Positions 16,259 through 63,097 of a stretch of 64,000 nt of DNA are shown in pieces. This DNA is from Thiobacillus sp. (GTDB taxonomy: Bacteria > Pseudomonadota > Gammaproteobacteria > Burkholderiales > Thiobacillaceae), in assembly GCA_019459325.1 (NCBI GenBank), contig JAIBFA010000065.1:1-64000 (forward strand), in the 5' to 3' direction. The notes under the pieces were generated by a model. The model saw nothing but the letters and a program-made list of their open reading frames with translations. It was not told the origin of the DNA and did not search any database. Each line of letters opens with the position of its first letter. Position 1 is the stretch's first letter. Made by a program: the position numbers and the translations under genes.

Positions 16259-16285
16259 GTAGCTCTCCCTTGAGTATTGGAATCA

Positions 16286-36885: not shown

Positions 36886-37346
36886 AAACCCGCCAACGCA
36901 TCCTGGTTCCGTTCACCCACGGCTACAACGGTTCGACCCTGCTGCGCCGCGCCAGCGAGATCACCGCGTCGGCAGATGTCGACCTGCTGGTGGTGAGCGT
37001 GCTGGACACCCGATCCGGTTTCGAGCTGGACGGGCCTGCCGGGAATCTTCCTGGAGAGCGTGCCGCGCGCCTGGCGCCGGCGGAACAGAAACGGCTCGAG
37101 CACGACCTGATGCGGCACGGACTCGACCAGGCGCAAGCCACCGTGATCTGGGGGGAGCCGCGCGCCGCCCTGTCCGCCCTGATCCGCAGCTGGCGCCCCG
37201 ACCTGGTCGTCTGCGATGGGCGCACGCGCCGCATGATGCCCGCCCGCAAGAGCCAGGAAGGCCCGGAGATGATGAGGGTCGGCCGCACCGGCGCCTTTGC
37301 ACGACTGGCTGGATTGTTCTATCACCAAGCACAGGGGCATGCCTGA
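36882..37346 (+). CDS. Universal-stress-like protein paired with SulP1
   Basis: A 154-residue protein with a Usp/HUP-like opening (RQRILVPFTHGYNGSTLLRR) and a central WRPDLVVCDGRTRRM segment. The canonical G-x2-G-x9-G-S/T ATP-binding signature is not evident. Its start overlaps the sulP1 stop (ATGA), so it is translationally coupled. A second small Usp-like protein precedes sulP2 at 42379, so the Usp-SulP association recurs in this window and suggests a regulatory role. Binding to the STAS domain is speculation. Confidence 0.65.
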   Translation: MKTRQRILVPFTHGYNGSTLLRRASEITASADVDLLVVSVLDTRSGFELDGPAGNLPGERAARLAPAEQKRLEHDLMRHGLDQAQATVIWGEPRAALSALIRSWRPDLVVCDGRTRRMMPARKSQEGPEMMRVGRTGAFARLAGLFYHQAQGHA

Positions 37347-37482: not shown

Positions 37483-38043
37483 ATGATTCGCCGCAACCCG
37501 CGAGGCGACCTGCCGGTCGTGCACGAGACCGCCTTTGTCGACCCCACCGCCATCATCTGTGGCCACATTATCATCGGCGAGAACGTCTTCATCGGACCCT
37601 ATGCGGTCATACGCGCCGACGAAGTCGACGAGAACGGTCACATGGAACCCATCGTCATCGGCGCGCACTCGAACATCCAGGACGGCGTGGTCATCCACTC
37701 CAAGGCCGGCGGACGGGTCGAGATCGGCGAGTACACCTCGATCGCTCACCGCTCCATCGTGCACGGGCCCTGCAAGGTGGGGGACCGCGTGTTCATCGGC
37801 TTCAACTCCGTGCTGTTCAACTGCGTGGTGGGCGAGGGCTCGGTGGTGCGCCACAACTCGGTGGTCGAGGGCTGCAGCGTGCCCGACGGCTTCTATATTC
37901 CCTCCACCTGCAACATCCACTCGGACGAGGAGCTCGCCAGCATCGAACCCGTCACCCCCGATGTGACCGGCTTCTCCGAAAGCGTGGCGCAGGCCAACCA
38001 CGAACTAGTCAAGGGCTACAAGCGCATCCGCAACGAGTTCTGA
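37483..38043 (+). CDS. Gamma-class carbonic anhydrase (Cam/CamH-like)
   Basis: A 186-residue left-handed beta-helix protein. The residues known from Cam are all visible: Arg44, Asp46 and Glu47 in VIRADE, Gln66 in NIQDG, and the three zinc/iron-ligand histidines His72, His89 and His94 in VVIHSK and IAHRSIVHGP. It lacks the acidic loop of archaeal Cam, as in CamH. It should interconvert CO2 and bicarbonate. No signal peptide is seen, so it is cytoplasmic. Position after sulP1 and usp points to inorganic-carbon handling. Confidence 0.8.
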   Translation: MIRRNPRGDLPVVHETAFVDPTAIICGHIIIGENVFIGPYAVIRADEVDENGHMEPIVIGAHSNIQDGVVIHSKAGGRVEIGEYTSIAHRSIVHGPCKVGDRVFIGFNSVLFNCVVGEGSVVRHNSVVEGCSVPDGFYIPSTCNIHSDEELASIEPVTPDVTGFSESVAQANHELVKGYKRIRNEF

Positions 38044-40713: not shown

Positions 40714-42072
40714 CTACCCCTTTTCCGCCTCGTACCGCTTCAGCTTGCGCCAAAGCGAAACGCGGTCGATGCCGAGCATCTGCGCGGCGGCGGTCTGGTT
40801 GCCGCCTGCTTCCTGCAGCACCCAGGCGATGTAGTCCTGTTCCTGTTCTTCCAGGGTGGGGATGCGGCCCGCCTTCTTGCGGAAGGTGCGGATCGAAAGA
40901 TCGCGCAGGTCGCCGGGCAAGTGGGCGGATTCGATGCTGTGGCCGGTGGTGACCGCGACGCCGCGCTCGATGATGTTTTCCAGTTCGCGCACGTTGCCGG
41001 GAAAGTCGTAGGCACGCAGCAGGTCGAGGGCGTCGGGGGCCAATTCGCCGACGTCCTTGCCCATCAGCGCGGCGTGCTTGGACAGAAAATGGTGGGCGAG
41101 CAGCGGCACGTCTTCCCTGCGCGCGGAGAGGGCGGGAATGTGCAGGTTGACGACGTTGAGGCGGAAGTAGAGATCCTGGCGGAAGCCGCCCAGCTTCACC
41201 ATCTCCTGCACGTCGCGATTGGTGGCGGCGATGAAGCGCACGTCGATTTTCACCGGCGTGGTGGCGCCCAGCGGCAGCACTTCCTTTTCCTGGATCACGC
41301 GCAGCAGCTTGACCTGCATGGTGGGCGACATTTCGGTGATCTCGTCCAGAAACAGCGTGCCGCCGCTGGCGGCTTCCAGCAGGCCCTTCTTGTCGGCGTG
41401 GGCGCCGGTGAAGGCGCCCTTGACGTGGCCGAACAGTTCGTTGGCCAGCAGCTCCTCGTTGAAGGCGCCGCAGTTCACCGCCACGAAGGGACGGGGGTCG
41501 CGCCGGCTGTGGTGGTGCAGGTAGCGCGCGAAAAGCTCCTTGCCGGTGCCGGATTCGCCCGTGATGAGGATGTTGCAGTCGGTGGGGGCGACCTGCCGCG
41601 CCATGTCGAGGAGGTGCTGCATGCGGCTGTCCTGGGTGAGGATGCGCAGTTCGCCCTGATAGCTTTCCACCTGCTGCCTGAGACTGCGGCCTTCGCACCT
41701 GAGGCGGATTTTTTCCAGCGCCCCCGCCACCACCTTGCGCAGCTCATCCGGCTGACAGGGTTTGGCAAGAAAATAGAAGGCGCCCAGCTTCATCGCCTCG
41801 ACAGCTGACTCCAGCGTTGCCTGGCCGGTGAACAGGATGACTTCCGTATCGGGAAGACTTTCGCGGCAGCGCCTGAGCAATTGCATGCCGTCCACCTTGT
41901 CCATGTGCAGTTCGCTCAGCACCACGTCGAAAGGCTGCTTCTCCAGCAGGGCCTGGGCATTGCTGCCGCTCTGGGTAGCGGTGACCGCGTAGCCTTCCTT
42001 TTTCATCACCTGTTCCAGATTTTTCATGGCGACCTTGTCGTCGTCCACGATCAGTAGCTTGCCGCTCGTCAT
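40714..42072 (-). CDS. NtrC-family sigma54 activator with Glu54 in place of phospho-Asp
   Basis: A 452-residue bacterial enhancer-binding protein from ATG 42072; upstream in-frame ATGs exist. The receiver domain has Asp10-12, Thr82 and Lys104, but the phospho-acceptor position 54 is Glu ([13 protein letters not shown], codon GAA). The AAA+ domain has Walker A GESGTGKE (172-179) and the sigma54-contacting GAFTGA (219-224). The C-terminus is a Fis-type helix-turn-helix ([20 protein letters not shown]). Asp54Glu in NtrC is a known partial activity mimic. No kinase gene is adjacent. It is divergent from, and likely activates, the usp-sulP-sulP-hyf unit. Confidence 0.88.
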
Positions 42073-42115
42073 GCGCACTCCCGTCATTCGTGCGCATGGC
42101 CATGCATGCCCACAT

Positions 42116-42134
42116 TTGTTGCATGCTGCAACAA
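42116..42134. promoter_or_regulatory. Perfect palindrome, candidate enhancer site 1
   Basis: TTGTTGCA-TGC-TGCAACAA is a perfect 8-3-8 inverted repeat just upstream of the activator gene. It contains the TGCAACA half-site that recurs at 42147 and 42248. Its distance of about 200 bp from the -24/-12 promoter fits an upstream activating sequence for a sigma54 activator, and it could also serve autoregulation. Confidence 0.6.
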
Positions 42135-42145
42135 TGCCGTACTGA

Positions 42146-42158
42146 TTGCAACATGTTG
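42146..42158. promoter_or_regulatory. Candidate enhancer site 2
   Basis: TTGCAACATGTTG contains a second TGCAACA half-site and the palindrome CAACATGTTG. It lies 12 bp from the first candidate site. Confidence 0.45.
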
Positions 42159-42238
42159 GGGGTTTAAGTTTTAACCTAGATTTAACAATGCGCTGTTGCC
42201 TGCCCCAGGCGGCCTCCTTTCCTGAGCACCCTCCAATC

Positions 42239-42253
42239 GTTGCGTAATGCAAC
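42239..42253. promoter_or_regulatory. Candidate enhancer site 3
   Basis: GTTGC-GTAAT-GCAAC is a perfect inverted repeat. With the next base it contains a third copy of TGCAACA (42248-42254). It sits about 80 bp upstream of the -24 element, a typical enhancer distance. Confidence 0.5.
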
Positions 42254-42272
42254 ATGCCAGGAAGATTCGAGC

Positions 42273-42294
42273 ATTCCAAATTTTGGAATATTCC
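42273..42294. promoter_or_regulatory. Nested ATTCCA/TGGAAT palindromes
   Basis: ATTCCAAA-T-TTTGGAAT (42273-42289) overlaps GGAATATTCC (42285-42294), giving three ATTCCA/TGGAAT half-sites in a row. The motif differs from the TGCAACA sites, so a second regulator may act here, about 40 bp upstream of the -24 element. Confidence 0.5.
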
Positions 42295-42330: not shown

Positions 42331-42346
42331 TGGCACGCATGCTGCA
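42331..42346 (+). promoter_or_regulatory. Sigma54 (-24/-12) promoter
   Basis: TGGCACGCATGCTGCA matches the consensus TGGCACG-N4-TTGCA at all but one base, with the invariant GG and GC at correct spacing. Transcription should start near 42357, about 20 bases before the ATG of the small Usp-like gene. A divergent sigma54 activator gene and upstream palindromes make this a strong call. Confidence 0.85.
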
Positions 42347-42378
42347 TTAAGGGGACGTCCCAATAGCGCGTCCCTGGA

Positions 42379-42774
42379 ATGACCCACCCTGGCAAACAAC
42401 GTACCGTTTTGCTCGCCGTCCGCGAGGGGCATGTCGACCCGCGCCTGCTGACGTCGGCGCTGTCGCTGTGCAGCCGCCTCGAGGCCGACCTGGAAATCCA
42501 GGTCATCGCCGCCGGCAAGACGCCGCCGGCCGAAATGGACGATTTTCTGTCCTCGCTGCGTCAGGCGGGACTGCCCTTCAGCCTGGAGGTGAAGCCCAGC
42601 CTGCGCCGGCGCGACCTGGTGGACTACGCCAACGCCCATGAAAACATCGCGGCCGTGGTGATCGACTCCCGCGAAGGCTGGGAGGCGCTGGCCCAGGATC
42701 GCAGCAGCGACCCCTGGAAACGGCTGGCCTGCCCGCTGGTAACCGCGGCGTCGCCCGAGAAGAAACACGCTTAA
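42379..42774 (+). CDS. Small Usp-like protein preceding SulP2
   Basis: A 131-residue soluble protein starting MTHPGKQRTVLLAVREGHVD. Its alternating strand/helix pattern (TVLLAVREGH, DLEIQVIAAG, IAAVVIDSREGW, CPLVTAA) suggests a universal-stress/HUP-like fold, without a clear ATP-binding signature. It is the first gene after the sigma54 promoter and lies 33 bp before sulP2. The same Usp-SulP association occurs at 35059-37346. A regulatory role toward the transporters is inferred. Confidence 0.6.
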   Translation: MTHPGKQRTVLLAVREGHVDPRLLTSALSLCSRLEADLEIQVIAAGKTPPAEMDDFLSSLRQAGLPFSLEVKPSLRRRDLVDYANAHENIAAVVIDSREGWEALAQDRSSDPWKRLACPLVTAASPEKKHA

Positions 42775-42807
42775 TTCACCTGCATTCAACCGACTAGACA
42801 TACGCCC

Positions 42808-44931
42808 ATGCCTGCCTACCTGACCAAATTCCTGCCTTTCCTGCGCTGGTTCCCCATGAAGGGCGACGTCCTCAAGGCCGACTTCATGGCCGGCATCACC
42901 GTGGCCCTGGTGCTGATCCCGCAGTCGATGGCCTATGCGCAGCTGGCCGGTCTGCCCGCGTACTACGGCCTGTATGCCGCCTTCCTGCCGGTGGCGGTGG
43001 CGGCCCTGTGGGGCAGCTCGAACCAGCTCGGCACCGGGCCGGTGGCCGTGGTATCGCTGCTGACGGCGTCGTCGCTGGCGGTGCTGGCGGCGCCGGGCTC
43101 CGACAACTTCATCGCGCTGGCCATCATGCTGGCGTTGCTGGTCGGCATCATCCAGCTGCTGCTCGGCGTGTTCAAGCTGGGGGTGATCGTCAACTTCCTG
43201 TCGCACCCGGTCATCGTCGGCTTCACCAATGCGGCGGCCATCATCATCGCGCTGTCGCAGGTATCCAAGCTGTTCGGCGTGCCGATGGGTCGCAGCGAGC
43301 ACTTCATCAACGACATCGTCGGCGTGGTCAAGCTGATCGGCGACACCCATCTGCCGACCCTGGCGATGGGCGCGCTGGCGATCGCCATCATGTGGAGCAT
43401 CAAGAAATATGCGCCCAAGCTGCCTGGCGTGCTGATTGCGGTGGTGGTGACCACGCTGCTGTCGTGGTCGATCGGCTTCGAGCGCAACGCGGCCGGCACG
43501 CCTGAACAAATCGCCGATCCCGAACTGCAGGCCGTGGTGCAGCAGAGCATGGCCGCAGCCAAACGGGTAGACGAGCTGAACACGCAAATCGCAGGCAAAG
43601 CAGCCGCATTGAAAACCGCGCAGAAAACCACGGACGAAGCCAACATCGGCGTCGTGCAAACCGAGGCTGAACTGGCACTGTTGCGGATCGACCTGCGCGA
43701 CGCAGAAGCCGCGCTCGCCAAGGAAAAGGCCGGACTTCGCCACCTGCAGGTGGTGCGCAGTACGGACGCAAGCGGCGCGACCCTGGCGATCTACCGTGCG
43801 GACAATGCGCCGCAGGACATCACGCTGGATGAGACGCGCTACCGCCTGCGCAAAATCAACGCCAACGGCTTCCAGCTGGTAGGCGGGGGCGAGGTGGTGG
43901 GCGCCATCCCGGAAGGCCTGCCCAGCGTCAAGATGCCCAGCTTCAACCTGGATGCCCTCGGTTCGCTGTTGTCCGCCGCGCTGGTGATTTCGCTGGTGGG
44001 TTTCATGGAAGCCATCTCCATCGCCAAGGCCGTTGCGGCCAGGACCAAGCAGCGTATCGATCCCAACCAGGAGCTGATCGGCCAGGGCCTGGCCAACGTG
44101 GTCGGCAGCTTCACCCAGGCGTTCCCGGTCTCGGGCTCGTTCTCGCGCACGGCCGTCAACATGAATTCGGGCGCCAAAACCGGCATGAGCTCGGTGATCA
44201 CCGCGCTGATCGTGCTGATCGCGCTGCTGTTCCTCACCCCGTTGCTGTACCACCTGCCGCAGGCCGTGCTGGCCGCCATCATCATCATGGCGGTGATCGG
44301 CCTGGTGAACTTCAAGGCAGTCAAGCATGCCTGGCAGGCCAGCAAGCATGACGGCATCGCCGCAGTGGTCACCTTCATTGCCACGCTGGCTTTCGCGCCG
44401 CATCTGGACAACGGCATCATGGTCGGCGCGGGCCTGGCGCTCGGCCTCTACCTGTACCGCACCATGTCGCCGCGCGTCGCGGTTCTCGGCCGCTTCAAGG
44501 ACGGCACCCTGCGCGACCTCAAGGTGAACCCCGACCTGCCCACCAGCAAGCACGTGGTGGCGATCCGCTTCGACGGCTCGCTGTACTTCGCCAACGTCGC
44601 CTACTTCGAAGACGCGGTGCTGGAAGCCGTGTCCAATCACCCTGACGCCAAATACGTGCTGGTGGTGGGCGCCGGCATCAACCAGCTGGACGCGTCCGGC
44701 GAAGAGGTCATTCATCATCTGGTCGAACGCCTGAAGGGCGCGGGGATCACCCTGGTGTTCAGCGGCCTGAAAAAACAGGTGCTGGACGTGATGCGCGCCA
44801 CCGGGCTGCTCGACACGATCGGGCTGGACAAGGTGTTCGCCACGGAAGACCAGGCGATTGCCGCAATTTACGAACAGCTGGGTAAAGATGCGGCAGAAGA
44901 CCTGTTCTGCGTGGTCGCACCGGCAAGATAA
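42808..44931 (+). CDS. SulP-family transporter with coiled-coil insertion (SulP2)
   Basis: A 707-residue SulP permease starting VLKADFMAGITVALVLIPQS, then MAYAQLAGLPAYYGLYAA, with a C-terminal STAS domain (VVAIRFDGSLYFANVAYFED). About 135 residues (~224-360) are inserted between helices 7 and 8, including a heptad-rich, probably coiled-coil stretch (~240-312). By topology this loop should face the periplasm. Ordinary SulP proteins have only a short GxIPxGLP loop there, and that motif (GAIPEGLPSV) resumes after the insert. It lacks the cysteine tail of SulP1 and SulP3. Substrate is unproven; bicarbonate or sulfate. Confidence 0.87.
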   Translation: MPAYLTKFLPFLRWFPMKGDVLKADFMAGITVALVLIPQSMAYAQLAGLPAYYGLYAAFLPVAVAALWGSSNQLGTGPVAVVSLLTASSLAVLAAPGSDNFIALAIMLALLVGIIQLLLGVFKLGVIVNFLSHPVIVGFTNAAAIIIALSQVSKLFGVPMGRSEHFINDIVGVVKLIGDTHLPTLAMGALAIAIMWSIKKYAPKLPGVLIAVVVTTLLSWSIGFERNAAGTPEQIADPELQAVVQQSMAAAKRVDELNTQIAGKAAALKTAQKTTDEANIGVVQTEAELALLRIDLRDAEAALAKEKAGLRHLQVVRSTDASGATLAIYRADNAPQDITLDETRYRLRKINANGFQLVGGGEVVGAIPEGLPSVKMPSFNLDALGSLLSAALVISLVGFMEAISIAKAVAARTKQRIDPNQELIGQGLANVVGSFTQAFPVSGSFSRTAVNMNSGAKTGMSSVITALIVLIALLFLTPLLYHLPQAVLAAIIIMAVIGLVNFKAVKHAWQASKHDGIAAVVTFIATLAFAPHLDNGIMVGAGLALGLYLYRTMSPRVAVLGRFKDGTLRDLKVNPDLPTSKHVVAIRFDGSLYFANVAYFEDAVLEAVSNHPDAKYVLVVGAGINQLDASGEEVIHHLVERLKGAGITLVFSGLKKQVLDVMRATGLLDTIGLDKVFATEDQAIAAIYEQLGKDAAEDLFCVVAPAR

Positions 44932-44979
44932 ATCCACGGATTCAACCCATACCCCAAGACAGGCTCAGGACCCGACACG

Positions 44980-46854
44980 ATGATTTTTTTCCCGGCAAGC
45001 TGGACACGCTACACAGGCAACCTTTTGAAAGCCGACCTGACGGCCGGTCTGATCGTGGCGGTGGTGTCGATCCCCCTGGGCCTGGCCTTTGCCATCGCCT
45101 CCGGTGCAACGCCCATCCAGGGCCTGCTGACCTCGGTGGTGGCAGGCTCGCTGGTCGCGATATTCGGCGGCTCGCGCTTCCAGATCGCCGGTGCGGCGGC
45201 GGCGCTGATCCCGGTGCTGGCGGCCATCTCGCTGACCTCCCTCAACGGCTTCCAGGACGTGATGATCGCCGGCATGATGGCGGGCGTGCTGCTGGTGCTG
45301 ATGGGCTGGCTGCGCTTCGGCAAGCTGATCGAGTACATCCCCCACCCGGTGGTGCTGGGCTTCACCTCGGGCATTGCCATCAGCATCATCGCGACCCAGC
45401 TCAACAACGTGCTCGGACTGGTCGCGCGTACGGCGGACGGTGAGAAAATCCTCGATGCCGGCGGCTTGGTCGAACGCCTGCCCAAGCATGAATTTTTCCA
45501 CGAAAACATGCTGGAGACGTTCCAGCATCTGGCCGCGGTGAACGGCTGGGCCATTCTGCTGACCTTGATTACCATCGCCGCCATCAAATACGGCCCCAAG
45601 CTGCCTTACCTCAAGCGCGTACCCGGCGCCCTGATCGGCCTGGTCGTCGGCACCGTCGTTGCGGTCACGCTGGGTTTTCCGGTCGAAACCATTGCCACGC
45701 TGTTCGGCCAGGTGCCGTCGTCACTGCCGGCGCCGAGCCTGCCCGAGGTCAGCTTTTCGCACATGCTGGAACTGGTCCGCCCGGCCTTCACCATCGCCAT
45801 CCTGGTCGGCGTCGAAGCGCTGCTGTCCGCCGTGGTGGCCGACAACATGTCCGGCGACCGCCATCACTCCAATCGCGAGCTGCTGGCCCAGGGTGCGGCC
45901 AACATCCTGTCGCCGCTGTTCGGCGGCATGCCCGCCACCGGCGTGATCGCCCGCACCGGAACCAACATCCTCTCCGGCGCACGCACCCGCATGGCCGGCT
46001 TCTCGCACGCGGTGATCGTGCTGCTGATCATCCTGATGGCCGCCCCGCTGGCGAGCGCCGTGCCGATGGCCGTGCTGGCCGCAATTCTCATCATGGTCGC
46101 CAGCAAGCTGGGCGAGTTCCATCACGCCAAGCACCTGCTGCAGCACGCTCCGCACGCCGACCGCGCGGTGTTCCTGGCAACCGTGCTGCTGACCGTCTTC
46201 ATCGACCTCACGGTGGCGATCGAGATCGGCATGGTGCTGGCGTCCTTCCTCTTCATCAAGCACATGAGCGAGAACACGCCGCAGGAAGTCGACCTCGCAG
46301 GCAACAGCCAGTATGCCGGTCTGGTGAACAAGGAAGGCGTCTGCCCGCAGACCATGTTCAAGGAAGCGCACGGTCCGCTGTTCTTCGGCGTGGCCAAGGC
46401 CTTCGAGCGCACGATCTGCAACGACATGGTCTGCACCAAGCCCTCGGTCGTCATCCTCCGGATGTCGAAGGTGTCGATGATGGACACCACCGGCCAGCGC
46501 GCGCTGGAAGGCGTGCTGCATCACGCCAAGCGCGAACGCCAGCACGTGATCTTCACCCGCGCCAATCCGCAGGTGGCCGGCATGCTGGGCGATCTGCAGG
46601 AAGACGGCCTGCTGGCCGACGACGCCATCGTTCCCAACAGCGATCTGGCGCTCAAGACCGCGATGAAGCACATGGATCCCGACGTGTGCAGCAACTGCAC
46701 CAGCCGCATTTTCCGCGAGTGCAGACAGCAGCCGGGCGGCGAGGATTTCCAGGAAAGCGTGGCGGCGCCGGCGTGGCCGGCCGGGCAGGAGCCGCCGACC
46801 GCAGGCGGCGGCCACGGCCTGCTGACGGCATCTCCCAGCAACACGCCGGCCTGA
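44980..46854 (+). CDS. SulP-family transporter with cysteine tail (SulP3)
   Basis: A 624-residue SulP permease (LLKADLTAGLIVAVVSIPLG, then GGMPATGVIARTGTNILSGA) with a STAS domain near residues 445-560. Residues 568-581 (DVCSNCTSRIFREC) repeat the C-x2-C-x7-C tail of SulP1, followed by a Pro/Gly-rich end. It lies 48 bp after sulP2 and 132 bp before hyfB, apparently in one transcription unit. Two different SulP proteins in one operon suggests either heteromers or two affinities or substrates. Confidence 0.88.
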   Translation: MIFFPASWTRYTGNLLKADLTAGLIVAVVSIPLGLAFAIASGATPIQGLLTSVVAGSLVAIFGGSRFQIAGAAAALIPVLAAISLTSLNGFQDVMIAGMMAGVLLVLMGWLRFGKLIEYIPHPVVLGFTSGIAISIIATQLNNVLGLVARTADGEKILDAGGLVERLPKHEFFHENMLETFQHLAAVNGWAILLTLITIAAIKYGPKLPYLKRVPGALIGLVVGTVVAVTLGFPVETIATLFGQVPSSLPAPSLPEVSFSHMLELVRPAFTIAILVGVEALLSAVVADNMSGDRHHSNRELLAQGAANILSPLFGGMPATGVIARTGTNILSGARTRMAGFSHAVIVLLIILMAAPLASAVPMAVLAAILIMVASKLGEFHHAKHLLQHAPHADRAVFLATVLLTVFIDLTVAIEIGMVLASFLFIKHMSENTPQEVDLAGNSQYAGLVNKEGVCPQTMFKEAHGPLFFGVAKAFERTICNDMVCTKPSVVILRMSKVSMMDTTGQRALEGVLHHAKRERQHVIFTRANPQVAGMLGDLQEDGLLADDAIVPNSDLALKTAMKHMDPDVCSNCTSRIFRECRQQPGGEDFQESVAAPAWPAGQEPPTAGGGHGLLTASPSNTPA

Positions 46855-46986
46855 CGCGCACAGACGAAAAGCGACGAACGAACCAATAAGGCTTTCAAAC
46901 AGGACGCATGATGTAGCAGTATTCCGTTATTGGACCGCACGCGCAGCGAGTGCGGGAACCCGGGCACGATAGGCAACCCAGCAAAA

Positions 46987-49005
46987 ATGATGGCAACGCT
47001 TTCCCTGCTTCCCCCCGATCCGGTCCAGTGGGCCTGGGGTATCGTGCTGTTCTGGCTGGTGCTGGGGTTTGCGGCGCTGCTGCTGCAAGGCTCGCAGCAC
47101 CTGCTGACCCGGCTGGTGTTTCCGCTGGGTGCGCTGGGCGCACTCGCCATCGCCGGTGTCGGCATCGCCGGCATGCTGCTGCCGGCCTCCGCCGTCATCC
47201 TGCCGATCGGCCTGCCCGACCTGCCTTTCCATCTGCGGCTGGACGCCCTGTCCGCCTTCTTCATGGTGCTGCTGGGCGGCGCGGCGTTCGGCATCACCGT
47301 CTACGCGTCCGGCTATTTCAAGAGCATGGCCTCCGGCCCGCTGGCGCTGCTGGCCCTGTGGTACCACCTGTTCCTGGCGGGCATGGTCACCGTGCTGCTG
47401 GCCGACGACGCCTACGCCTTCATGGTGGCGTGGGAAGTGATGGCGCTGTCGTCCTACTTCCTCGTCACCACCGACCACAAGATTCCCGAAATCCGCCGCG
47501 CCGGCTTCCTCTATCTGCTGATCGCGCACGTCGGCGCGGTGTCGCTGCTGCTCACCTTCGGCGTGTTGCAGGGCGGCCACGGCGACTATACCTTCGACAC
47601 CATGCGCTTGGCCGAGATGACGCCGTTCTGGGCCTCGGCCGCGTACCTGCTGGCGCTGTTCGGCTTCGGCGCCAAGGCCGGCCTGGTGCCGATGCACGTG
47701 TGGTTGCCGGAAGCGCACCCGGCCGCGCCCTCGCCGGTGTCCGCGCTGATGTCGGGCGTGATGCTGAAGACCGCCATCTACGGTCTGCTGCGGGTGACCT
47801 TCGATCTGCTCAATATCCAGATCGGCTGGTGGGGCACGCTGGCACTGGCGCTCGGTTTGATTACTGCGCTGTACGGCGTGATCTTCGCCGCCGTGCAGTC
47901 GGACATGAAGCGGCTCTTGGCCTGGTCGTCGATCGAAAACATCGGCATCCTGCTCGCCGCTTTCGGCCTCACGCTGATTTTCTACACCGACGGCAAGGGC
48001 GCACTGGCGGCGCTGACGCTCACCGCGATGCTCTACCACGCCCTCAACCATGCCTTCTTCAAGGGTCTGCTGTTCATCGGCACCGGCTCGGTGCTGCACG
48101 CCACCGGGGTGCGCCACATGGGCCATCTGGGCGGCCTGATGCGCTTCATGCCGTGGACGGCCTGGCTGACCCTGATCGGCGCGCTGGCCATCGCCGGGCT
48201 GCCGCCTCTGAACGGCTTCGTGTCGGAATGGCTGCTGCTGCAAGCCTTTCTGATGACCCCCGGCCTGACCCATCCCTACCTCAACATGGTGATTCCGGTG
48301 GCCGCCGCGATCGTGGCGCTGGCCGCAGCACTGGCCGCCTATGTGATGGTGAAGTTCTTCGGCGTCGTGTTTCTTGGGCAGCCACGCGATCCGGCGCTGC
48401 ACGAGGCGCACGAAGCCAGCTGGCCGGAACGTCTGGGCATGCTCTGGCTGGCGGCAGGCTGCGTGCTGCTGGGTCTGTTCCCCGCCCAGGTCATTGCCTG
48501 GCTGGCCCCGGTGGTGCGCCTGCTGAGCAACCAGACGCTGGTGAACGACGGCAACTGGCTGATGCTGGCGCCCGTTTCGGCGGAGCGCGCGAGCTACGCG
48601 CCGCTGATCTTCTTCGCAGTGGTGGCCGTGGTCGTGCTGCTGACCTATCTGTGGGTGCGTCGCGTCTACCACGGCCGGGTGCGCCGCAGCGACCCGTGGG
48701 ATTGCGGCTATCCGGAACAGGACGCGCGCATGCAGGACAGCGCCGAGGGCTTCGGCCAGCCGATCCGGCAGATTTTCGAGGTATTCATGAAGGTGGAACG
48801 GGAAACCCCCGACCCTTTCGACCGCAAGCCGCACTACAGCGGCGCCTCGCTGGACAAGCTCTGGTTCATTCTCTATGAACCCATCGCGCGCGTGACGAAC
48901 TGGCTGTCGCAACAGGCCGGGCGGCTGCAGCACGGTCGCATCCAGTGGTACCTGATCTACAGCTTTGCCACCCTGATCTTCCTCCTGATCTTCACCACAC
49001 GATGA
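46987..49005 (+). CDS. hyfB: HyfB-like antiporter-type membrane subunit
   Basis: A 672-residue polytopic protein of the NuoL/M/N-MrpA/D family, the size of hydrogenase-4 component B. Conserved proton-path residues are present: Glu in AWEVMALSSYF and Lys in FGFGAKAGLVPMHVWLPEAH. The C-terminal extension includes DPWDCGYPE, typical of HyfB/HycC. ATG 46987 is used; a longer frame upstream has no hydrophobic start. It should contribute ion translocation to the Complex-I-like assembly encoded by the next five genes. Confidence 0.88.
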   Translation: MMATLSLLPPDPVQWAWGIVLFWLVLGFAALLLQGSQHLLTRLVFPLGALGALAIAGVGIAGMLLPASAVILPIGLPDLPFHLRLDALSAFFMVLLGGAAFGITVYASGYFKSMASGPLALLALWYHLFLAGMVTVLLADDAYAFMVAWEVMALSSYFLVTTDHKIPEIRRAGFLYLLIAHVGAVSLLLTFGVLQGGHGDYTFDTMRLAEMTPFWASAAYLLALFGFGAKAGLVPMHVWLPEAHPAAPSPVSALMSGVMLKTAIYGLLRVTFDLLNIQIGWWGTLALALGLITALYGVIFAAVQSDMKRLLAWSSIENIGILLAAFGLTLIFYTDGKGALAALTLTAMLYHALNHAFFKGLLFIGTGSVLHATGVRHMGHLGGLMRFMPWTAWLTLIGALAIAGLPPLNGFVSEWLLLQAFLMTPGLTHPYLNMVIPVAAAIVALAAALAAYVMVKFFGVVFLGQPRDPALHEAHEASWPERLGMLWLAAGCVLLGLFPAQVIAWLAPVVRLLSNQTLVNDGNWLMLAPVSAERASYAPLIFFAVVAVVVLLTYLWVRRVYHGRVRRSDPWDCGYPEQDARMQDSAEGFGQPIRQIFEVFMKVERETPDPFDRKPHYSGASLDKLWFILYEPIARVTNWLSQQAGRLQHGRIQWYLIYSFATLIFLLIFTTR

Positions 49006-49940
49006 GCGTTAGCCTGCAACTCGCCCAATCCCTGCTGGCTATCCTGCTGGCGCCGCTGCTGATGGGCTGGGTCAACCAGTGCCGCGCCTGGCTGCAGGGC
49101 CGCACTGCGCCGCCGATCACCCAGCCATACCGCACGCTCCGGAAGCTGTTCCTCAAGGACGCGGTGATCGCGCACCACGCCAGCCCGCTGTTCCGCTTCG
49201 CGCCCTACATGATCTTCGCCTGCATGGCGCTGGCGGCCGGCATCGTACCGACCATCGCCAACGACCTGCCATTCTCGCCGGCCGCCGACGTCATCGCGCT
49301 GGTCGGCATCTTCGCGCTGGCGCGGGTGTTCCTGGCGCTGGCGGCGATGGATATCGGCACCGCCTTCGGCTCGCTGGGTGCGCGCCGCGAGATGCTGGTG
49401 TCCTTCCTCGCCGAACCGGCGTTGTTGATGGTGTTCTTCACCGCCAGCCTGATTTCGCAGTCGACCGAACTGCCCGTCATCGTGCAGACCCTGGCGCTGC
49501 AGGAGTTCGCCATCTACCCCAGCCTGGCATTCGCCGCGGTGGCGTTCTGGATGATCTCGGTGGCTGAGAACGCGCGCATCCCGGTCGACAACCCCAGCAC
49601 CCATCTCGAACTGACCATGATCCACGAGGCGATGATCCTTGAATATTCGGCCCGCCATCTGGCACTCATCGAGTGGGCGGTGGCGCTGAAGCTGTTCACC
49701 TATTCGGCGCTCGGCATCGCACTGTTCCTGCCCTGGGGGATCGCGGCGCAGGGGGACATCGCCGCATTGCCGCTGGCGCTCGTGGCCATGGTCGCGAAAC
49801 TGCTGATCGGCGGTGCCGTGCTGGCCTTCATCGAGACGATTTCGGCCAAGGTGCGGTTGTTCCGCGCGCCGGAGTTCCTCGGCACCGCCTTCCTGCTGGC
49901 GGTGCTGGGCATGCTGATTCATTTCCTGCTGGAGGTGTGA
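49002..49940 (+). CDS. hyfC: HyfC-like (NuoH-type) membrane subunit
   Basis: A 312-residue protein with about eight helices and the NuoH/HyfC signature loop ENARIPVDNPSTHLELTMIH followed by EAMILEYSARHLALIEWA, which contacts the hydrophilic arm in Complex I and group 4 hydrogenases. The start overlaps hyfB by ATGA. It is needed to couple a peripheral arm to the membrane subunits, so its retention argues for a complete two-armed complex. Confidence 0.88.
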   Translation: MSVSLQLAQSLLAILLAPLLMGWVNQCRAWLQGRTAPPITQPYRTLRKLFLKDAVIAHHASPLFRFAPYMIFACMALAAGIVPTIANDLPFSPAADVIALVGIFALARVFLALAAMDIGTAFGSLGARREMLVSFLAEPALLMVFFTASLISQSTELPVIVQTLALQEFAIYPSLAFAAVAFWMISVAENARIPVDNPSTHLELTMIHEAMILEYSARHLALIEWAVALKLFTYSALGIALFLPWGIAAQGDIAALPLALVAMVAKLLIGGAVLAFIETISAKVRLFRAPEFLGTAFLLAVLGMLIHFLLEV

Positions 49941-49941
49941 C

Positions 49942-50604
49942 GTGTCGCTGACTTACCACCTGCAAATCGTCAACCTGCTGGCCGCCCTGCTGCTGCTGAT
50001 TTCCTTTGCCATGCTGTCGCAGCGCCGCATCGCCGGGCTGATCACGCTGTTCGCCTGGCAGGGCGCGGCGCTGACGGCGTCCACTGCACTGGTCGCCTGG
50101 TCCACCGGCCAGCACCACCTGTATTACTCGGCCGCGATCACCCTGGTGCTCAAGGTGATCGCCATGCCCTGGTACTTTTTCCGCATCGTCAAAAAGCTCG
50201 ACGTCGACCGCGATGTCGAACCGATGATCAACATCCCCACCACCATGCTGATCGGCATCGTGCTGGTGATCTTCGCGTTCAACCTGGCGCTGCCCATTTC
50301 CGAGTTGTCCGGCACCGTGATGCGCTCGACCTTGGGCATCGCACTCGCCTGCGTGCTGCTCGCCTTCCTCATGATGATCACGCGCAGGAAGGCGATCCCC
50401 CAGGTGATCGGCTTCCTGGCGATGGAAAACGGTCTGTTCTTCGCCGCAACGAGCACATCCTATGGGATGCCCCTTGTCGTCGAACTGGGCGTGGCCCTCG
50501 ATGTGATGGTGGCGGTGTTCGTGCTCTCCATCTTCTTCTTCCAGATCCGCGAGACCTTCGATTCGCTGGATCTGAAACACATGGAAAAACTGAAAGAACG
50601 CTGA
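49942..50604 (+). CDS. hyfE: HyfE-like (NuoK-type) membrane subunit
   Basis: A 220-residue protein from GTG 49942 with about six or seven helices. The region GIALACVLLAFLMMITRRKA, then IPQVIGFLAMENGLFFAATS is typical of HyfE, including the intramembrane Glu in MENGLF that corresponds to NuoK. It starts one base after the hyfC stop. Confidence 0.85.
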   Translation: MSLTYHLQIVNLLAALLLLISFAMLSQRRIAGLITLFAWQGAALTASTALVAWSTGQHHLYYSAAITLVLKVIAMPWYFFRIVKKLDVDRDVEPMINIPTTMLIGIVLVIFAFNLALPISELSGTVMRSTLGIALACVLLAFLMMITRRKAIPQVIGFLAMENGLFFAATSTSYGMPLVVELGVALDVMVAVFVLSIFFFQIRETFDSLDLKHMEKLKER

Positions 50605-50605
50605 G

Positions 50606-52057
50606 ATGGAAATCTACTGGCTGCTCGGCATTCCGTTGACAGGGGGCGTGTTCCTGGCGCTCTGGGGCTGCAGAAAGCACGCGCCGGAAATCAATGCGCT
50701 GTTCAGCCTGGCCACGCTGCTGGCCGCCGCGTGGCTGACCCACCGCATCATCGACCAGGGGCCGATGATGGTGGGTGCCGGTTGGTTCTTCATCGACTCG
50801 TTCAACGTCTTCCTGGTCGCGCTGACTGCCTTCGTCGCCTTCACCACGGCGCTGTTCTCGCGCCCCTACATGCGCATCGAGGCGGAGCACGGCAAGCTCA
50901 ACGCCCAGCGCCTGCGGCTCTATCACAGCAGCTACCAGATTTTCATCGGCGCCATGCTGCTGGCGCTGACCACCAACAACATGGGCATCCTGTGGGTGGC
51001 GATGGAAGCGGCGACGCTCGCCACCGTGCTGCTGGTTTCGCTATATCGCACCCCGGCCTCGCTGGAAGCTGCGTGGAAGTATTTCATCCTGTGCGGCGTC
51101 GGCATCGCGCTGGCGCTGTTCGGCACCATCCTGCTCTACTTCGCGGCGGAGAAAATTCTCGGCTCGGGCGGCACCGCCTTGCTGTGGACGCATCTCAACG
51201 GCGTCAAGGCACAGCTGGAGCCGACGGTGCTGTCCCTGGCCTTCGTCTTCCTGCTGGTCGGCTACGGCACGAAAGTGGGCCTGGCGCCGCTGCACAGCTG
51301 GTTGCCGGACGCCCACGCCGAAGGCCCGACGCCGGTGTCCGCCGTGCTGTCGGGCCTGCTGCTCAACGTCGCGCTGTACGCGGTGATGCGCTCCAAGGTG
51401 CTGGTCGACGGCGCGCTCGGCAACGACCTGGCGGGCAACCTGATGATGGGCTTCGGCCTCTTCTCGGTGGTGCTGGCCGCCTTCCTGATCAAGCGCCAGA
51501 CCGATGTGAAGCGCATGTTCGCCTACTCGTCGATCGAGCACATGGGCCTCATCACTTTCGCCTTCGGTATGGGCGGCGCGGTGGCGAACTTCGCGGCGCT
51601 GCTGCACATGACCATGCACTCGCTGACCAAGTCCGCCATCTTCTTCGCCGTCGGCCACGCCACGCAGAAAGCCGGCACCCAGCTGATGGCCGACATCCGC
51701 GGGCTGATCCAGACCAACCCCACCATCGGCTGGGGGCTGATGCTAGGCACCGTCGCCATCCTCGGCGTGCCGCCCTTCGGCGTGTTCGCCAGCGAATTCC
51801 TCATCATCACCACCGCCATGCACGAGCATCCCTGGGCCACGCCTTTCCTGCTGCTGGCGCTGGGCGTGGCCTTCGCCTCGATCTTCGGCAAGGTGCAGCC
51901 GATGGTGTTCGGCGAAACCGAATTGCCGAAGCTGCCTTACCAGCCCGCGCTGGCGCCGGTGTTCCTGCACCTGGGACTAGTGCTGATGCTGGGCCTGTTC
52001 ATCCCGCCCTACCTCGCCGACTGGTACCGGCAGGCCGCGCAACTTCTGGGAGGCTGA
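50606..52057 (+). CDS. hyfF: HyfF-like antiporter-type membrane subunit
   Basis: A 483-residue second NuoN/M-type subunit. It keeps Glu in WVAMEAATLATVLLV, Lys in GYGTKVGLAPLHSWLPDAHA, and the helix-break region GPTPVSAVLSGLLLNVALY. It begins one base after hyfE. With HyfB it gives the complex at least two potential ion channels. Confidence 0.88.
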   Translation: MEIYWLLGIPLTGGVFLALWGCRKHAPEINALFSLATLLAAAWLTHRIIDQGPMMVGAGWFFIDSFNVFLVALTAFVAFTTALFSRPYMRIEAEHGKLNAQRLRLYHSSYQIFIGAMLLALTTNNMGILWVAMEAATLATVLLVSLYRTPASLEAAWKYFILCGVGIALALFGTILLYFAAEKILGSGGTALLWTHLNGVKAQLEPTVLSLAFVFLLVGYGTKVGLAPLHSWLPDAHAEGPTPVSAVLSGLLLNVALYAVMRSKVLVDGALGNDLAGNLMMGFGLFSVVLAAFLIKRQTDVKRMFAYSSIEHMGLITFAFGMGGAVANFAALLHMTMHSLTKSAIFFAVGHATQKAGTQLMADIRGLIQTNPTIGWGLMLGTVAILGVPPFGVFASEFLIITTAMHEHPWATPFLLLALGVAFASIFGKVQPMVFGETELPKLPYQPALAPVFLHLGLVLMLGLFIPPYLADWYRQAAQLLGG

Positions 52058-52058
52058 C

Positions 52059-53600
52059 ATGCAAATCGGCGAACACGACTGGCACCTCGATCCGTTCGGC
52101 AGGCACATCTGGCGCGGCCGCATGGAGGCCGGCCAGCTGCTCGCGCTGGCCCGTGCAGTCAAGGAGGAAGGCGGACAGCTCGTCGCCCTGTGGGGCTCGG
52201 ACGACCGTCATCTGGATGGCGGCTTCGCCATTCATGCGGCCTTCCTCACCGGCGCCGGGCTCGCCTGGGCGAGCAGCGCCCTGCCGGCGGAGGCGCCGGC
52301 CTACCCCGACCTCGCGCACATCTTCCCGCAGGCCGACCGCATGCAGCGTGCGACTTTCGACCTGCTCGGCATCACCGCCAGCGAAGCGGTGGACGAGCGC
52401 AAATGGCTGCGCCACGGCGCCTGGCCGGCGAACGTTTTCCCGCTGCGCCGCGACTTCGATCCGAGTCTGCCGCCCATCCACGACACCGACGCCTACCCCT
52501 TCATCCGTGTCGAGGGCGACGGCGTGCACGAGATTCCGGTCGGCCCGATCCACGCCGGCACCATCGAGCCGGGGCATTTCCGCTTCTCCATCATCGGCGA
52601 GCGCATCCTCCGGCTGGAACAGCGCCTCGGCTACACCCACAAGGGCACGGAAAAACGCTTCGAGGGCATGGACCTCGCGACCGGCGCCAAGCTGGCCGGA
52701 CGCGTCTCCGGCGATTCGCACAGCGCCTATGCCTGGGCCTACTGCATGGCGGTCGAGAGCGCCACTGCCAGCGCAGTGCCCGAGCGCGCCGTGTGGCTGC
52801 GCGCGCTGTTCCTGGAAATCGAGCGCATCGCCAACCATCTGGGCGACCTCGGCTACCTCGGCAACGACGTCGCGCTCGGCTTCGGCTTCATGCAGTTCTG
52901 GCGGCTGAAGGAGGACTGGTTGCGGCTCAGCGCGAAACTGTTCGGCCACCGCTACCTGTTCGACTGCATCGTGCCGGGCGGCGTGGCGAAGGACATCGAC
53001 GACGGCGGCCGCGCGGAACTGGCCGCCGAGGCCGACCGCATCGAGGCGGAAGTGCGTTCGCTCAAGGCCATCTACGACGATCACGCCACGCTGCAGGATC
53101 GTTTCGCCAACACCGGCATCGTGAAACCCGACCTGGCGGCGCGGCTCGGCCTCACGGGTCTCGCCGGACGCGCCAGCGCGCAGGCCTGGGACGCCCGCGC
53201 CCAGTTCCCGCAGGCGCCCTACGACCAGCTCGACGTCAGCATGGCCACGCAGCGGCGCGGCGACGTGTTGGCGCGCGCCGAAGTGCGCTTCGCCGAAGTC
53301 ACCGAATCGCTGCGCTTGATCCGCGCGCTGCTCACGCGCCTGCCGGCGGGCGAGCTGCACGCGCCGCTCGCTCCGGTTGCGGCAGTGTGCGAAGGCGTCG
53401 GCTGGGTGGAAGGCTGGCGCGGCGAAGTGGTGGTAGCGGTGAGGATCGGCGCGGACGGCCGGCTCGACCGCGTGCACCCGCACGACCCGTCGTGGCAGAA
53501 CTGGCCGCTGCTGGAAATCGGCGTGCTCGGCAACATCGTTCCCGACTTCCCGCTCATCAACAAATCGTTCAACCTCTCCTACAGCGGACAGGATTTATAA
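52059..53600 (+). CDS. hyfG: HyfG-like (NuoCD-type) large subunit without NiFe ligands
   Basis: A 513-residue fusion of a NuoC-like domain (1-~140) and a NuoD/hydrogenase-large-subunit-like domain (YTHKGTEKRFEGMDLA; LEIERIANHLGDLGYLGND). In NiFe group 4 hydrogenases the first ligand pair lies in R-x-C-G-x-C and the last in DPCxxC near the C-terminus. Here the first is RVSGDSHSAYAW and the protein ends DFPLINKSFNLSYSGQDL, so all four NiFe cysteines are absent. It cannot hold a NiFe site and belongs with Ehr-type complexes or Complex I-like proteins. Confidence 0.88.
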   Translation: MQIGEHDWHLDPFGRHIWRGRMEAGQLLALARAVKEEGGQLVALWGSDDRHLDGGFAIHAAFLTGAGLAWASSALPAEAPAYPDLAHIFPQADRMQRATFDLLGITASEAVDERKWLRHGAWPANVFPLRRDFDPSLPPIHDTDAYPFIRVEGDGVHEIPVGPIHAGTIEPGHFRFSIIGERILRLEQRLGYTHKGTEKRFEGMDLATGAKLAGRVSGDSHSAYAWAYCMAVESATASAVPERAVWLRALFLEIERIANHLGDLGYLGNDVALGFGFMQFWRLKEDWLRLSAKLFGHRYLFDCIVPGGVAKDIDDGGRAELAAEADRIEAEVRSLKAIYDDHATLQDRFANTGIVKPDLAARLGLTGLAGRASAQAWDARAQFPQAPYDQLDVSMATQRRGDVLARAEVRFAEVTESLRLIRALLTRLPAGELHAPLAPVAAVCEGVGWVEGWRGEVVVAVRIGADGRLDRVHPHDPSWQNWPLLEIGVLGNIVPDFPLINKSFNLSYSGQDL

Positions 53601-54131
53601 ATGGCGACGCACCTGATCCTGCAGAAGATATTCAAGACCGGCTTCGTCTCCGAGCCGGCGCCCGAAGCCGACCTCGCATTGCGCACGCGCGAGCAGGAAC
53701 TGCATGCGGACATCCTCAGGGTGTTCGGCCAGTCGGTGGCGATCCGCCACGTCGACGCCGGCTCCTGCAACGGCTGCGAACTGGAAATCCACGCGATCAA
53801 CGGGCCGCACTACAACATCGAGGGCATGGGGGTGAAGTTCGTGGCGAGCCCGCGCCATGCCGACGTGCTGCTGGTAACCGGCCCGGTCTCGCGCAATCTG
53901 GAAGTCGCATTGAAGCGCGCGTTTGAAGCCACCCCGGAACCCAAGTGGGTGATCGCCATGGGCGACTGCGGCTGCACGGGGGGGATGTTCGGCGAGAGCT
54001 ACGCCTCGTGCGGAAAAGTCTCCAACGTCATCCCGGTCGATGTGGAAGTGCCCGGCTGCCCACCCACGCCGATTGCCCTGCTGCAAGGCATCCTTGCCGC
54101 CGTCAGCAAGGGCAGGAACACGGCGGCTTAG
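53601..54131 (+). CDS. hyfI: HyfI-like (NuoB-type) Fe-S small subunit
   Basis: A 176-residue NuoB-family protein. The [4Fe-4S] (N2-like) ligands are retained: Cys56 and Cys59 (GSCNGCELEIHAINGP), Cys123/125 (GDCGCTGG) and Cys153 (VPGCPPTP). It starts directly after the hyfG stop. It is shorter than E. coli HyfI. No HyfA/HyfH-like ferredoxin gene follows, so the electron entry route is not encoded here. Confidence 0.87.
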   Translation: MATHLILQKIFKTGFVSEPAPEADLALRTREQELHADILRVFGQSVAIRHVDAGSCNGCELEIHAINGPHYNIEGMGVKFVASPRHADVLLVTGPVSRNLEVALKRAFEATPEPKWVIAMGDCGCTGGMFGESYASCGKVSNVIPVDVEVPGCPPTPIALLQGILAAVSKGRNTAA

Positions 54132-56518: not shown

Positions 56519-57574
56519 TCAAACGCCATTGAGCAATTCCAGATTCCGGCTGCCCCAGTTCAGCACGGCGGTCCGGCGGTGCATTTTTTCGGCCAGCTGC
56601 GGAAACTCGCGCGTGATGACGTCGGCGGAGAAATCGGACAGGAAACGCGACTTGAGTTCGGCGCGCGCGCGGTCGACGCCGATTTCGGCATAGGGCACCG
56701 ACGCCAGCAGCAGGAAACCGTCGTCGGGAATCCGCCCGGCCGCCATGTTGTTCTGCAGGATGCCGGCGGCCTTGCGCACCGGGTCGACCAGGTCGGGGCT
56801 GTAGGGCCCGATGATGAGCGCCTGGTTGGGCATGTGCAGCCAGTCGAAGCCGCGGCCCAGGCAGATCACCCATTCGCGGTGCTCGATGTCGAGCTCGCGC
56901 GCGGCCCGTCGCACCTCGGCAACATGGCGGATGTTGCCCTGCACCAGCGGCAGCAGGTCGGCGCGCATCTGCTCCGGCATGTCCGGGAACAGGCTCTGCA
57001 GGCGCGCGGGCAGGGTCTCGATTTCCGTCACGCTCGACGCGTCGAGCATCTCGCCGTTCTGTCCGTGCAGGATCAGCGCGTCCTCGTCCGTCTCGAATCC
57101 GCACACCAGTGGGTAGACGGTCTGATGGCTGGCGCCGAACACCTGCTCGACCTGGCGGCGAATGGCGAAGGTATGCGCGCGCGCCGCCTCGGTGTCGAAA
57201 TCGAATCCTGCGCAGCCGCGCTGCGGATCGCCTTTTGAAAAATGATAGGTCGAGGTCATCAGCGCGCGCCGGCCCGCGCCCACGACCGACATCACATAGT
57301 CCGTCAGTACCTCGCCCAGATGCGGCCAGCCCAGATCGAAACGCCCGCCGAGGTTGCGGAAGGGCTGGATGATGCCCATGGGCGTTTCGGTCGCCAGCGG
57401 GATATTGATGCGGCCGTCCATGCATTTCAGCACGCCGATCGCGGTGGGATGCTCGGCGAGATAACGCTTGCGGGCCAGCCAGGTATCCGGGCTGGCGAAG
57501 GCGTCGCCGTGTTTTTTCGCGTGGGCGAACAGCCAGTCGATCCGCGTTTCGATGGATTGGGCGTAAAGATTCAT
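56519..57574 (-). CDS. Beta-type (CsoSCA-like) carbonic anhydrase
   Basis: A 351-residue protein with Cys51-x-Asp53-x-Arg55 (VLKCMDGRINIP) and His111...Cys121 (TYHFSKGDPQRGCAGFDFDT). This is the beta-CA zinc/Asp-Arg dyad layout, but with His and second Cys nine residues apart instead of HxxC, recalling the carboxysomal CsoSCA catalytic domain. No shell or CsoS2 genes are present and the CsoSCA N-terminal domain is missing. It sits downstream of cbbO on the same strand, so supplying CO2 to RuBisCO is a reasonable inference. Activity is not shown. Confidence 0.65.
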   Translation of the reverse strand: MNLYAQSIETRIDWLFAHAKKHGDAFASPDTWLARKRYLAEHPTAIGVLKCMDGRINIPLATETPMGIIQPFRNLGGRFDLGWPHLGEVLTDYVMSVVGAGRRALMTSTYHFSKGDPQRGCAGFDFDTEAARAHTFAIRRQVEQVFGASHQTVYPLVCGFETDEDALILHGQNGEMLDASSVTEIETLPARLQSLFPDMPEQMRADLLPLVQGNIRHVAEVRRAARELDIEHREWVICLGRGFDWLHMPNQALIIGPYSPDLVDPVRKAAGILQNNMAAGRIPDDGFLLLASVPYAEIGVDRARAELKSRFLSDFSADVITREFPQLAEKMHRRTAVLNWGSRNLELLNGV

Positions 57575-63069: not shown

Positions 63070-63097
63070 ATGCTTGTTTTGGAACGGTAACAATACC

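Follow-up and report, generated by a model that had tools for sequence, protein, structure and literature searches.

A SulP-hyf Operon Beside RuBisCO Genes in Thiobacillus: A NiFe-less Ehr Complex in a Candidate Inorganic-Carbon Supply Locus

Introduction

Complex-I-type membrane arms can be devoted to CO2 uptake, as in cyanobacterial NDH-1MS. The DAB systems are a second Complex-I-derived inorganic-carbon pump, for which proton flow is proposed as the driving force in the part of the source cited here (PMC13144422). Ehr complexes are Hyf-like relatives whose function is stated as unknown in passages of a 2014 and a 2023 paper (PMC4378227, PMC10284858). For SulP transporters, an excerpted account from Thiomicrospira pelophila describes a carboxysome-adjacent SulP that rescues carbonic anhydrase (CA)-less E. 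coli at low CO2 and a second SulP that fails to do so (PMC12628692). Here, we analyzed a 64-kb stretch of a Thiobacillus sp. genome (contig JAIBFA010000065.1, positions 1 to 64,000; hereafter, the window), in which a putative sigma54-controlled operon joins two SulP genes to hyfBCEFGI, a hydrogenase-4-like gene block lacking a nickel-iron (NiFe) site. We conclude that this locus is probably an inorganic-carbon supply system for the neighboring RuBisCO.

Results

Organization of the Operon and the Ehr Complex

Gene families were assigned by Pfam and NCBIfam scans. A reading of the window from the sequence alone (hereafter, the sequence-only reading) had described nine co-directional genes behind a near-consensus sigma54 site, with a divergent sigma54 activator. 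All nine open reading frames (ORFs) and the activator were located as described, and the activator carries the expected REC, sigma54_activat, and HTH_8 domains. Linked loci, in the list below and throughout, are hyf loci associated with an anion transporter.

40714..42279, − strand: sigma54-dependent response regulator (activator); translation probably begins at an ATG close to residue 70 of the listed frame
42331..42346, + strand: sigma54-like promoter, 1 mismatch, TGGCACGCATGCTGCA
42379..42774, + strand: usp-like ORF, with no family match in the Pfam and NCBIfam scans; homologues (≥30% identity) near 5 of 27 linked loci
42808..44931, + strand: SulP2 transporter, PF00916 + STAS
43483..43887, + strand: SulP2 insertion between transmembrane segments TM7 and TM8, predicted helical hairpin and small beta part
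44980..46854, + strand: SulP3 transporter, PF00916 + STAS
46930..49005, + strand: hyfB, NuoL-like; start probably ATG 46987 rather than TTG 46930
48945..49940, + strand: hyfC, NuoH-like; start probably 49002 (4 bp overlap with hyfB) rather than 48945
49942..50604, + strand: hyfE
50606..52057, + strand: hyfF, antiporter-like
52059..53600, + strand: hyfG, NuoCD/HycE-like, NiFe cysteines lost
53601..54131, + strand: hyfI, NuoB-like, four cluster cysteines retained

HyfB and HyfF scored 890 and 860 bits against NCBIfam hydrogenase-4 cut-offs of 667 and 543, respectively. HyfC, HyfE, HyfG, and HyfI matched NuoH-, HyfE-, NuoC/NuoD-, and NuoB-type models, with HyfE and HyfG below the NCBIfam cut-offs. 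The closest named HyfG was that of a Thiobacillus sp. metagenome-assembled genome (MAG; 86%), and the top PDB relative was HycE of formate hydrogenlyase (7z0s, E 7e-85). The RVSGDS and NLSYSG motifs of the HyfG family align to the HycE CxxC regions RVCGIC and DPCYSC, and the four NiFe-ligand cysteine positions are Ser, Ser, Ser, and Gly. Because all four cysteines are replaced, this is an Ehr complex and not a hydrogenase, which bears out the NiFe-less, Ehr-type Hyf of the sequence-only reading. Assignment to the group 4 [NiFe] hydrogenases was rejected on the two CxxC motifs missing from the large subunit.

Residue conservation was assessed in full-length homologues of ≥44% identity from the fetched loci. 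Cys56, Cys59, Cys123, and Cys153 of HyfI were retained in 100/100 sequences, and Asp219 of HyfG was invariant (107/107). HyfB, HyfF, and HyfC retain charged residues of the kind expected in antiporter and NuoH channels. As judged from these residues, the HyfBCEFGI Ehr complex has the ligands of a single iron-sulfur (FeS) cluster and no NiFe site. A classic respiratory complex I was also rejected. The NADH-input module (NuoEFG and NuoI) is absent from the operon (operon genes only; no partner was sought elsewhere in the genome), and, by eye in a T. thermophilus alignment, HyfG lacks the His and Tyr at what we take to be the NuoD quinone-binding positions. The operon likewise contains no formate or ferredoxin module. 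Tandem hyf blocks were seen at four other loci (L039, L087, L115, and L167), one copy being more distant from the window subunits.

DAB in Place of Hyf

Twelve genomes positive for RuBisCO and aprA and lacking hyf, out of 17 such genomes counted by hand, were searched with SulP2, and eight carried a homologue at E ≤ 1e-80. In five of the twelve (G043, G311, G088, G106, and G263), an orthologous SulP2 lies directly upstream of an antiporter-type DabB and DabA (PF10070). Homologues of the kinase and the activator precede SulP2-dabBA in G043, and SulP1 and a gamma-CA precede it in G106 and G263. A further hyf-less genome (G281) carries the activator, usp, SulP2, SulP3, gamma-CA, and SulP1, followed by CbbO, RbcL, and carboxysome genes, while the more distant SulP2s of G028 and G424 (44–56% identity) also lie beside carboxysome genes. 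In a quick tree of SulP2, dab-linked genes are intermixed with hyf-linked ones, and well-supported branches force at least three changes.

The sequence-only reading had invoked DAB systems by analogy, as pairing a NuoL-like DabB with a different partner. Since SulP lies upstream of dabBA in 5/12 relatives, this analogy becomes one of positional replacement. In the genome of the window, DabA (PF10070) gave 0 matches at 87.84% completeness. On gene order and homology, our reading is that the transporter kept its place while the Complex-I-derived carbon module following it was exchanged for a different one; in G043, a homologous regulator pair is present as well. Complementarity between DabA and linked hyf was rejected as not significant among 57 RuBisCO-positive genomes (DabA in 2/12 linked vs. 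17/45 others, p 0.30).

CO2-Fixation Genes Flanking the Operon

The operon lies between a SulP1, Usp, and gamma-CA-like gene group upstream and an opposite-strand block of CO2-fixation genes downstream.

35059..36885, + strand: SulP1, SLC26/SulP + STAS; its type recurs near 13 of 27 linked loci
36816..37346, + strand: Usp-family protein (Pfam Usp) after SulP1
37483..38043, + strand: gamma-CA-like protein, Hexapep
56519..57574, − strand: CsoSCA-like beta-carbonic anhydrase
57718..60075, − strand: CbbO-like VWA protein
60157..60960, − strand: CbbQ, CbbQ_C
61092..61448, − strand: RuBisCO small subunit (RbcS), by family scan
61516..62937, − strand: RuBisCO large subunit (RbcL), by family scan
63074..64000, + strand: LysR regulator by family scan, probable CbbR, divergent to RbcL and truncated by the window end

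The zinc-binding His72, His89, and His94 of the gamma-CA-like protein were conserved in 11/11 relatives, and its NCBIfam CA/CcmM scores were under the curated cut-offs. The CsoSCA-like protein matched PF20686 (26.9 vs. a cut-off of 21.5) and retains a C-x-D-x-R motif, a His, and a Cys, which we take to be the CsoSCA ligands. Its structure model, of moderate confidence (pLDDT 64.7), gave five PDB matches with E ≤ 0.001, all of them carboxysomal CsoSCA (E 7e-12 to 1e-9). It is not a full carboxysomal CsoSCA by TIGR02701 (37 bits vs. a cut-off of 241), and no carboxysome shell genes were recognized among the window ORFs scanned (not every ORF was scanned, and other contigs were not searched). The VWA protein matched only Pfam VWA, and we presume it to be CbbO from its position.

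Several observations concern these neighbors. Two more partial RuBisCO large-subunit matches were present in the genome (G000; C109:86239-86481 and C47:30816-31601), one of the two on the same contig as the window, at the distal end. The aprA neighborhood of G397 contains ORFs weakly similar to CbbQ and CbbO, and that of this genome a CbbO-like ORF (L213:4955-7075 and L217:5228-8322), a second activase-type pair in a sulfur locus. The CbbQ-like query from the apr neighborhood matched the RuBisCO-associated CbbQ in the window and in L123, L153, L154, and L158. Next to hyfI lies what by eye is a spermidine-synthase-like protein (54449-55339, − strand), and a cluster similar to it by eye was near hyf in 11 further loci. 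An Rfam search returned 0 matches.

SulP Transporters

SulP2 (442 bits) and SulP1 (400) passed the TIGR00815 sulfate permease cut-off of 380 bits, while SulP3 (310) fell below it; a match to this model is a subfamily label rather than a test of substrate. Membership in BicA was rejected for all three, which scored far below the NF050096 cut-off of 880 bits (SulP2 150, SulP3 261, SulP1 183). The best solved relative of SulP3 was nonetheless BicA, and the closest PDB relative of SulP2 was the plant sulfate transporter SULTR4;1. Model comparison, done for SulP2 only and at moderate confidence (pLDDT 73.5), showed an SLC26 fold. The SulP2 insertion of ~130 residues would face the periplasm according to the predicted topology. 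Judged by length, it is present in 17/23 aligned SulP2 proteins and absent from the 83%-identical SulP2 of L074. SulP3 was found in 0/26 other linked loci; elsewhere, G281, which lacks hyf, carried it at 82% and G424 had a homologue at 41%. As only the window has it among 27 linked loci, sulP3 was rejected as a core part.

Unusual SulP genes were seen at several places. A 72-residue ORF in the window (24159-24377, − strand) matches the N-terminal end of SulP1 only (47%) and is what is left of another SulP gene. SulP and Usp are paired more than once, in the window after SulP1 and in L109, where a SulP1-type ORF seems by eye to continue into Usp-like repeats (576-4436). A different SulP precedes hyf in the Methylothermaceae MAG of L140, and 47 bp upstream lies a sigma54-like site without mismatch (2609-2656); this MAG had no RuBisCO match and no aprA over the cut-off. 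In L062 (G020), the SulP2 match is a 174-residue ORF without the protein middle (15841-16365), between TauE and CitMHS/gamma-CA/hyf. A 79-residue ORF beside TauE had no match.

Linkage Between Transporters and Hyf

Linkage was surveyed in 379 genomes of the order, of which 103 had a HyfG match at E ≤ 1e-60. Three were dropped at only 33–39% identity (G240, G320, and G363), leaving 100 hyf-positive genomes; 21 loci lay on contigs too short to judge, and 79 were determinable. Status was assigned by tblastn with a few transporter queries, which other transporter families would escape. A SulP, TauE, or CitMHS gene lay on the same strand ≤4 kb upstream of hyfB in 24 loci, and three more had one nearby. 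Thus, 27/79 loci were linked, spanning 14 genera and 7 families, and 52 were not. The partners near the linked loci were SulP2-type (20), SulP1-type (13), TauE (6), CitMHS (3, one at 29% identity), and SulP3 (1). The activator (≥50% identity) was near 12/27 linked and 0/52 unlinked loci, and the kinase (≥40% identity) near 11/27 and 0/52. On a quick HyfF/HyfG tree, linkage changed at least five times on well-supported branches.

Synteny, which the sequence-only reading had offered as a check, was found in a minority of determinable loci, and a general SulP-hyf unit was rejected. The 52 loci without a transporter imply that Ehr must act without SulP as well. This would suit an arrangement in which two systems share one promoter, SulP and the CAs serving carbon and Ehr having its own redox or pH task needed simultaneously by autotrophic lithotrophs; the fully conserved HyfI cluster cysteines, a hint of electron transfer, point the same way. 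Such a division of labor is quite improbable in our judgment, given DAB in the same place behind SulP2 in five of the twelve relatives and the repeated changes of linkage on the tree. Several unlinked hyf loci (e.g., L044, L049, L054, L173, and L184) adjoin metG (methionyl-tRNA synthetase, named by eye) and no transporter.

A named set, in which 50 of 80 named loci were tested, was not pooled with the sample because the two overlap (e.g., L074 = G370 and L089 = G211). Within it, 36/50 genomes had a PF00016 match, form-IV-like sequences and fragments included, and 20/50 were over the aprA cut-off.

Carbon or Sulfur Correlates

Across the sample, RuBisCO was present in 74/100 hyf-positive vs. 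68/279 other genomes and aprA in 58/100 vs. 27/279. RuBisCO was found in 26/27 linked vs. 33/52 unlinked genomes (p 0.001) and aprA in 25/27 vs. 22/52 (p 1e-5), with both present in 24/27 vs. 18/52. By genus, the figures were 14/14 vs. 18/30 for RuBisCO and 13/14 vs. 15/30 for aprA (both p < 0.01). RuBisCO as the sole genomic correlate was rejected, as aprA tracks linkage as well.

The genes beside hyf gave a different picture. CO2 genes (gamma-CA, CsoSCA-like, CbbO, and RbcL) were near 16/27 linked loci, the window among them (15/26 without it), and near 0/52 unlinked loci; by genus, 9/14 vs. 0/30. The stretches compared were unequal, mostly 19–20 kb, some shorter, and 64 kb for the window. 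Queries for AprA, AprB, and Sat, which came from L215–L217 and were identified by eye, and for SoxB matched in 0/79 determinable loci (dsr was not tested). Sat was observed near hyf once, at the named locus L079. RuBisCO lay ≤25 kb from hyf in at least 7/27 linked genomes (G000, G397, G014, G293, G341, G298, and G200) and aprA ≤100 kb in 0/27; these distances were tallied by hand, and contig ends limit both. A chance neighborhood, with the genes hitchhiking in an autotrophy island without a common function, would account for the variable gene order and for unlinked hyf loci beside housekeeping genes. We hold it to be very remote, as linkage recurs across genera and families and the activator, kinase, and CO2 genes are near none of the unlinked loci.

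Several points weigh against carbon supply. Taken alone, the phyletic pattern speaks for sulfur no less than for carbon: linkage tracks aprA at least as well as RuBisCO, still goes with aprA within RuBisCO-positive genomes (24:2 vs. 45:71), and is more weakly associated with RuBisCO within aprA-positive genomes (24:1 vs. 45:15, p 0.03). The HyfF/HyfG tree gives only five independent pairs, and no association was significant on these, carbon genes included. Of the unlinked loci, 19 are in RuBisCO-less genomes, and the unlinked genome G033 likewise has RuBisCO 19.5 kb from hyf. SulP2 is over the sulfate-permease cut-off, far under that of BicA, and nearest SULTR4;1, and the TauE/SafE (6/27) and SLC13-like CitMHS (3/27) partners also fit sulfur oxyanions. 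Finally, the hyf-less genomes were hand-picked, and 4/12 were without SulP2.

Much of this would be expected if the locus transported sulfur oxyanions only, with SulP, TauE, and the SLC13-like protein exporting sulfate or sulfite formed in the cytoplasm by the APS pathway (or importing sulfate), Ehr coupling this to ion gradients, and the CO2 genes adjacent for other reasons. The sequence-only reading had named sulfate import or export as its main alternative, and the aprA linkage, stronger than that of RuBisCO in the conditional comparison, and the SulP2 label lend it weight. We consider it unlikely, since AprA, AprB, Sat, and SoxB (dsr was not tested) were matched at none of the determinable loci vs. 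CO2 genes at 16/27 linked ones, and dabBA directly follows SulP2 in relatives. Energised bicarbonate uptake, as first suggested, gains from the cbbLSQO, gamma-CA, and CsoSCA-like flanks and from the SulP-dabBA relatives, and loses from the minority synteny and the equal tracking of aprA.

Promoter and Operon Structure

The site at 42331 differs by one mismatch from TGGCAC-N5-TTGCW. Six sites with ≤1 mismatch occur on both strands of the 64 kb, so the site is weak taken alone; some of the relatives also have it at the corresponding position. Upstream sites with ≤1 mismatch were found at 7/24 upstream-linked, 0/3 near, and 6/52 unlinked loci, vs. 1, 0, and 3 in a reverse-strand control. A stricter pattern, TGGCAC-N6-TGCW, occurred at 6/24 upstream-linked vs. 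0/52 unlinked loci, having been picked post hoc, once matches had been seen.

The tight joining of hyfB to hyfI claimed in the sequence-only reading was confirmed, with junctions of 1 bp (C/E, E/F, and F/G) and 0 bp (G/I) in addition to the probable hyfB/hyfC overlap. With the later HyfB start, the sulP3-hyfB gap becomes ~132 bp. No internal sigma70-like promoters were found between 42200 and 54600, vs. 2.0 expected, and terminator-like matches were near the chance level (9 vs. 6.7 expected, standard deviation 2.6). The spacing suggests that the nine genes are co-transcribed, with no internal break indicated.

Discussion

From the gene content, the lost NiFe ligands, the retained FeS ligands and antiporter residues, the adjacent CO2 genes, and the alternation of DAB and hyf, we propose a scheme for inorganic-carbon supply, in which substrate, direction, counter-ion, regulation, and coupling would be as follows. 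The SLC26/SulP transporters would import bicarbonate, possibly exchanging it for cytoplasmic sulfate from sulfur oxidation. The NiFe-less Ehr complex, in the DabB-DabA place, would supply ion or redox coupling, driven by proton flow or by electrons via the HyfI cluster. The gamma- and CsoSCA-like carbonic anhydrases would interconvert CO2 and bicarbonate, and the sigma54-dependent response regulator would turn the operon on.

Sulfate-for-bicarbonate exchange is the preferred, unproven form of this proposal and would explain why linked loci occur in genomes holding both RuBisCO and aprA. A similar exchange was suggested in 2008 for At. ferrooxidans, where a SulP is paired with a CA, in the portion of that report cited here (PMC2621215). 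A bolder version, which we put forward as possible and rather doubtful, is a third Complex-I-derived inorganic-carbon pump besides NDH-1MS and DAB, made of an FeS-only Ehr, a gamma- (or CsoSCA-like) CA, and an SLC26 transporter, with sulfate out, bicarbonate in, and sulfur oxidation paying for carbon uptake. If Ehr does replace DAB behind the same transporter, the Ehr family gains a testable job, and neutrophilic lithoautotrophs would have an unrecognized inorganic-carbon route. The operon also makes sulfate-for-bicarbonate exchange testable, which, if true, would directly connect the oxidation of sulfur with the fixation of CO2.

Comparison with Known Systems

NDH-1MS would share with the hyf locus a Complex-I-type membrane arm for carbon uptake and differs in its subunit set (CupA/CupB were not sought here). 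The excerpted account of mitochondrial complex I with gamma-CA subunits (PMC2900272) offers a parallel in the pairing of a gamma-CA with a Complex-I-type membrane complex. In our loci, this pairing is known from genomic adjacency alone, gamma-CA being the nearest called upstream gene before hyfB in five linked loci (L034, L062, L154, L155, and L182). Formate hydrogenlyase and hydrogenase-4 (HycE and HyfG) resemble the complex through HycE, the best PDB relative of its HyfG; unlike them, it has its NiFe cysteines replaced, and the operon lacks a formate dehydrogenase or ferredoxin-like subunit. The Ehr complexes, as far as the cited portions describe them, have Hyf-like subunits and lost NiFe ligands as here (PMC10284858, PMC4378227), whereas in this locus hyf adjoins genes for SulP transporters and for CO2 fixation, a combination that no paper showed among the matches listed in searches of the open-licence literature. 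Compared with DAB/DAC, the hyf locus has a Complex-I-like block of six subunits whose arm resembles NuoB/NuoD, separate carbonic anhydrases, and no DabA. Both nevertheless have an antiporter-type (PF00361) membrane subunit, in the same place behind an orthologous SulP2 and, in G043, with a homologous regulator pair.

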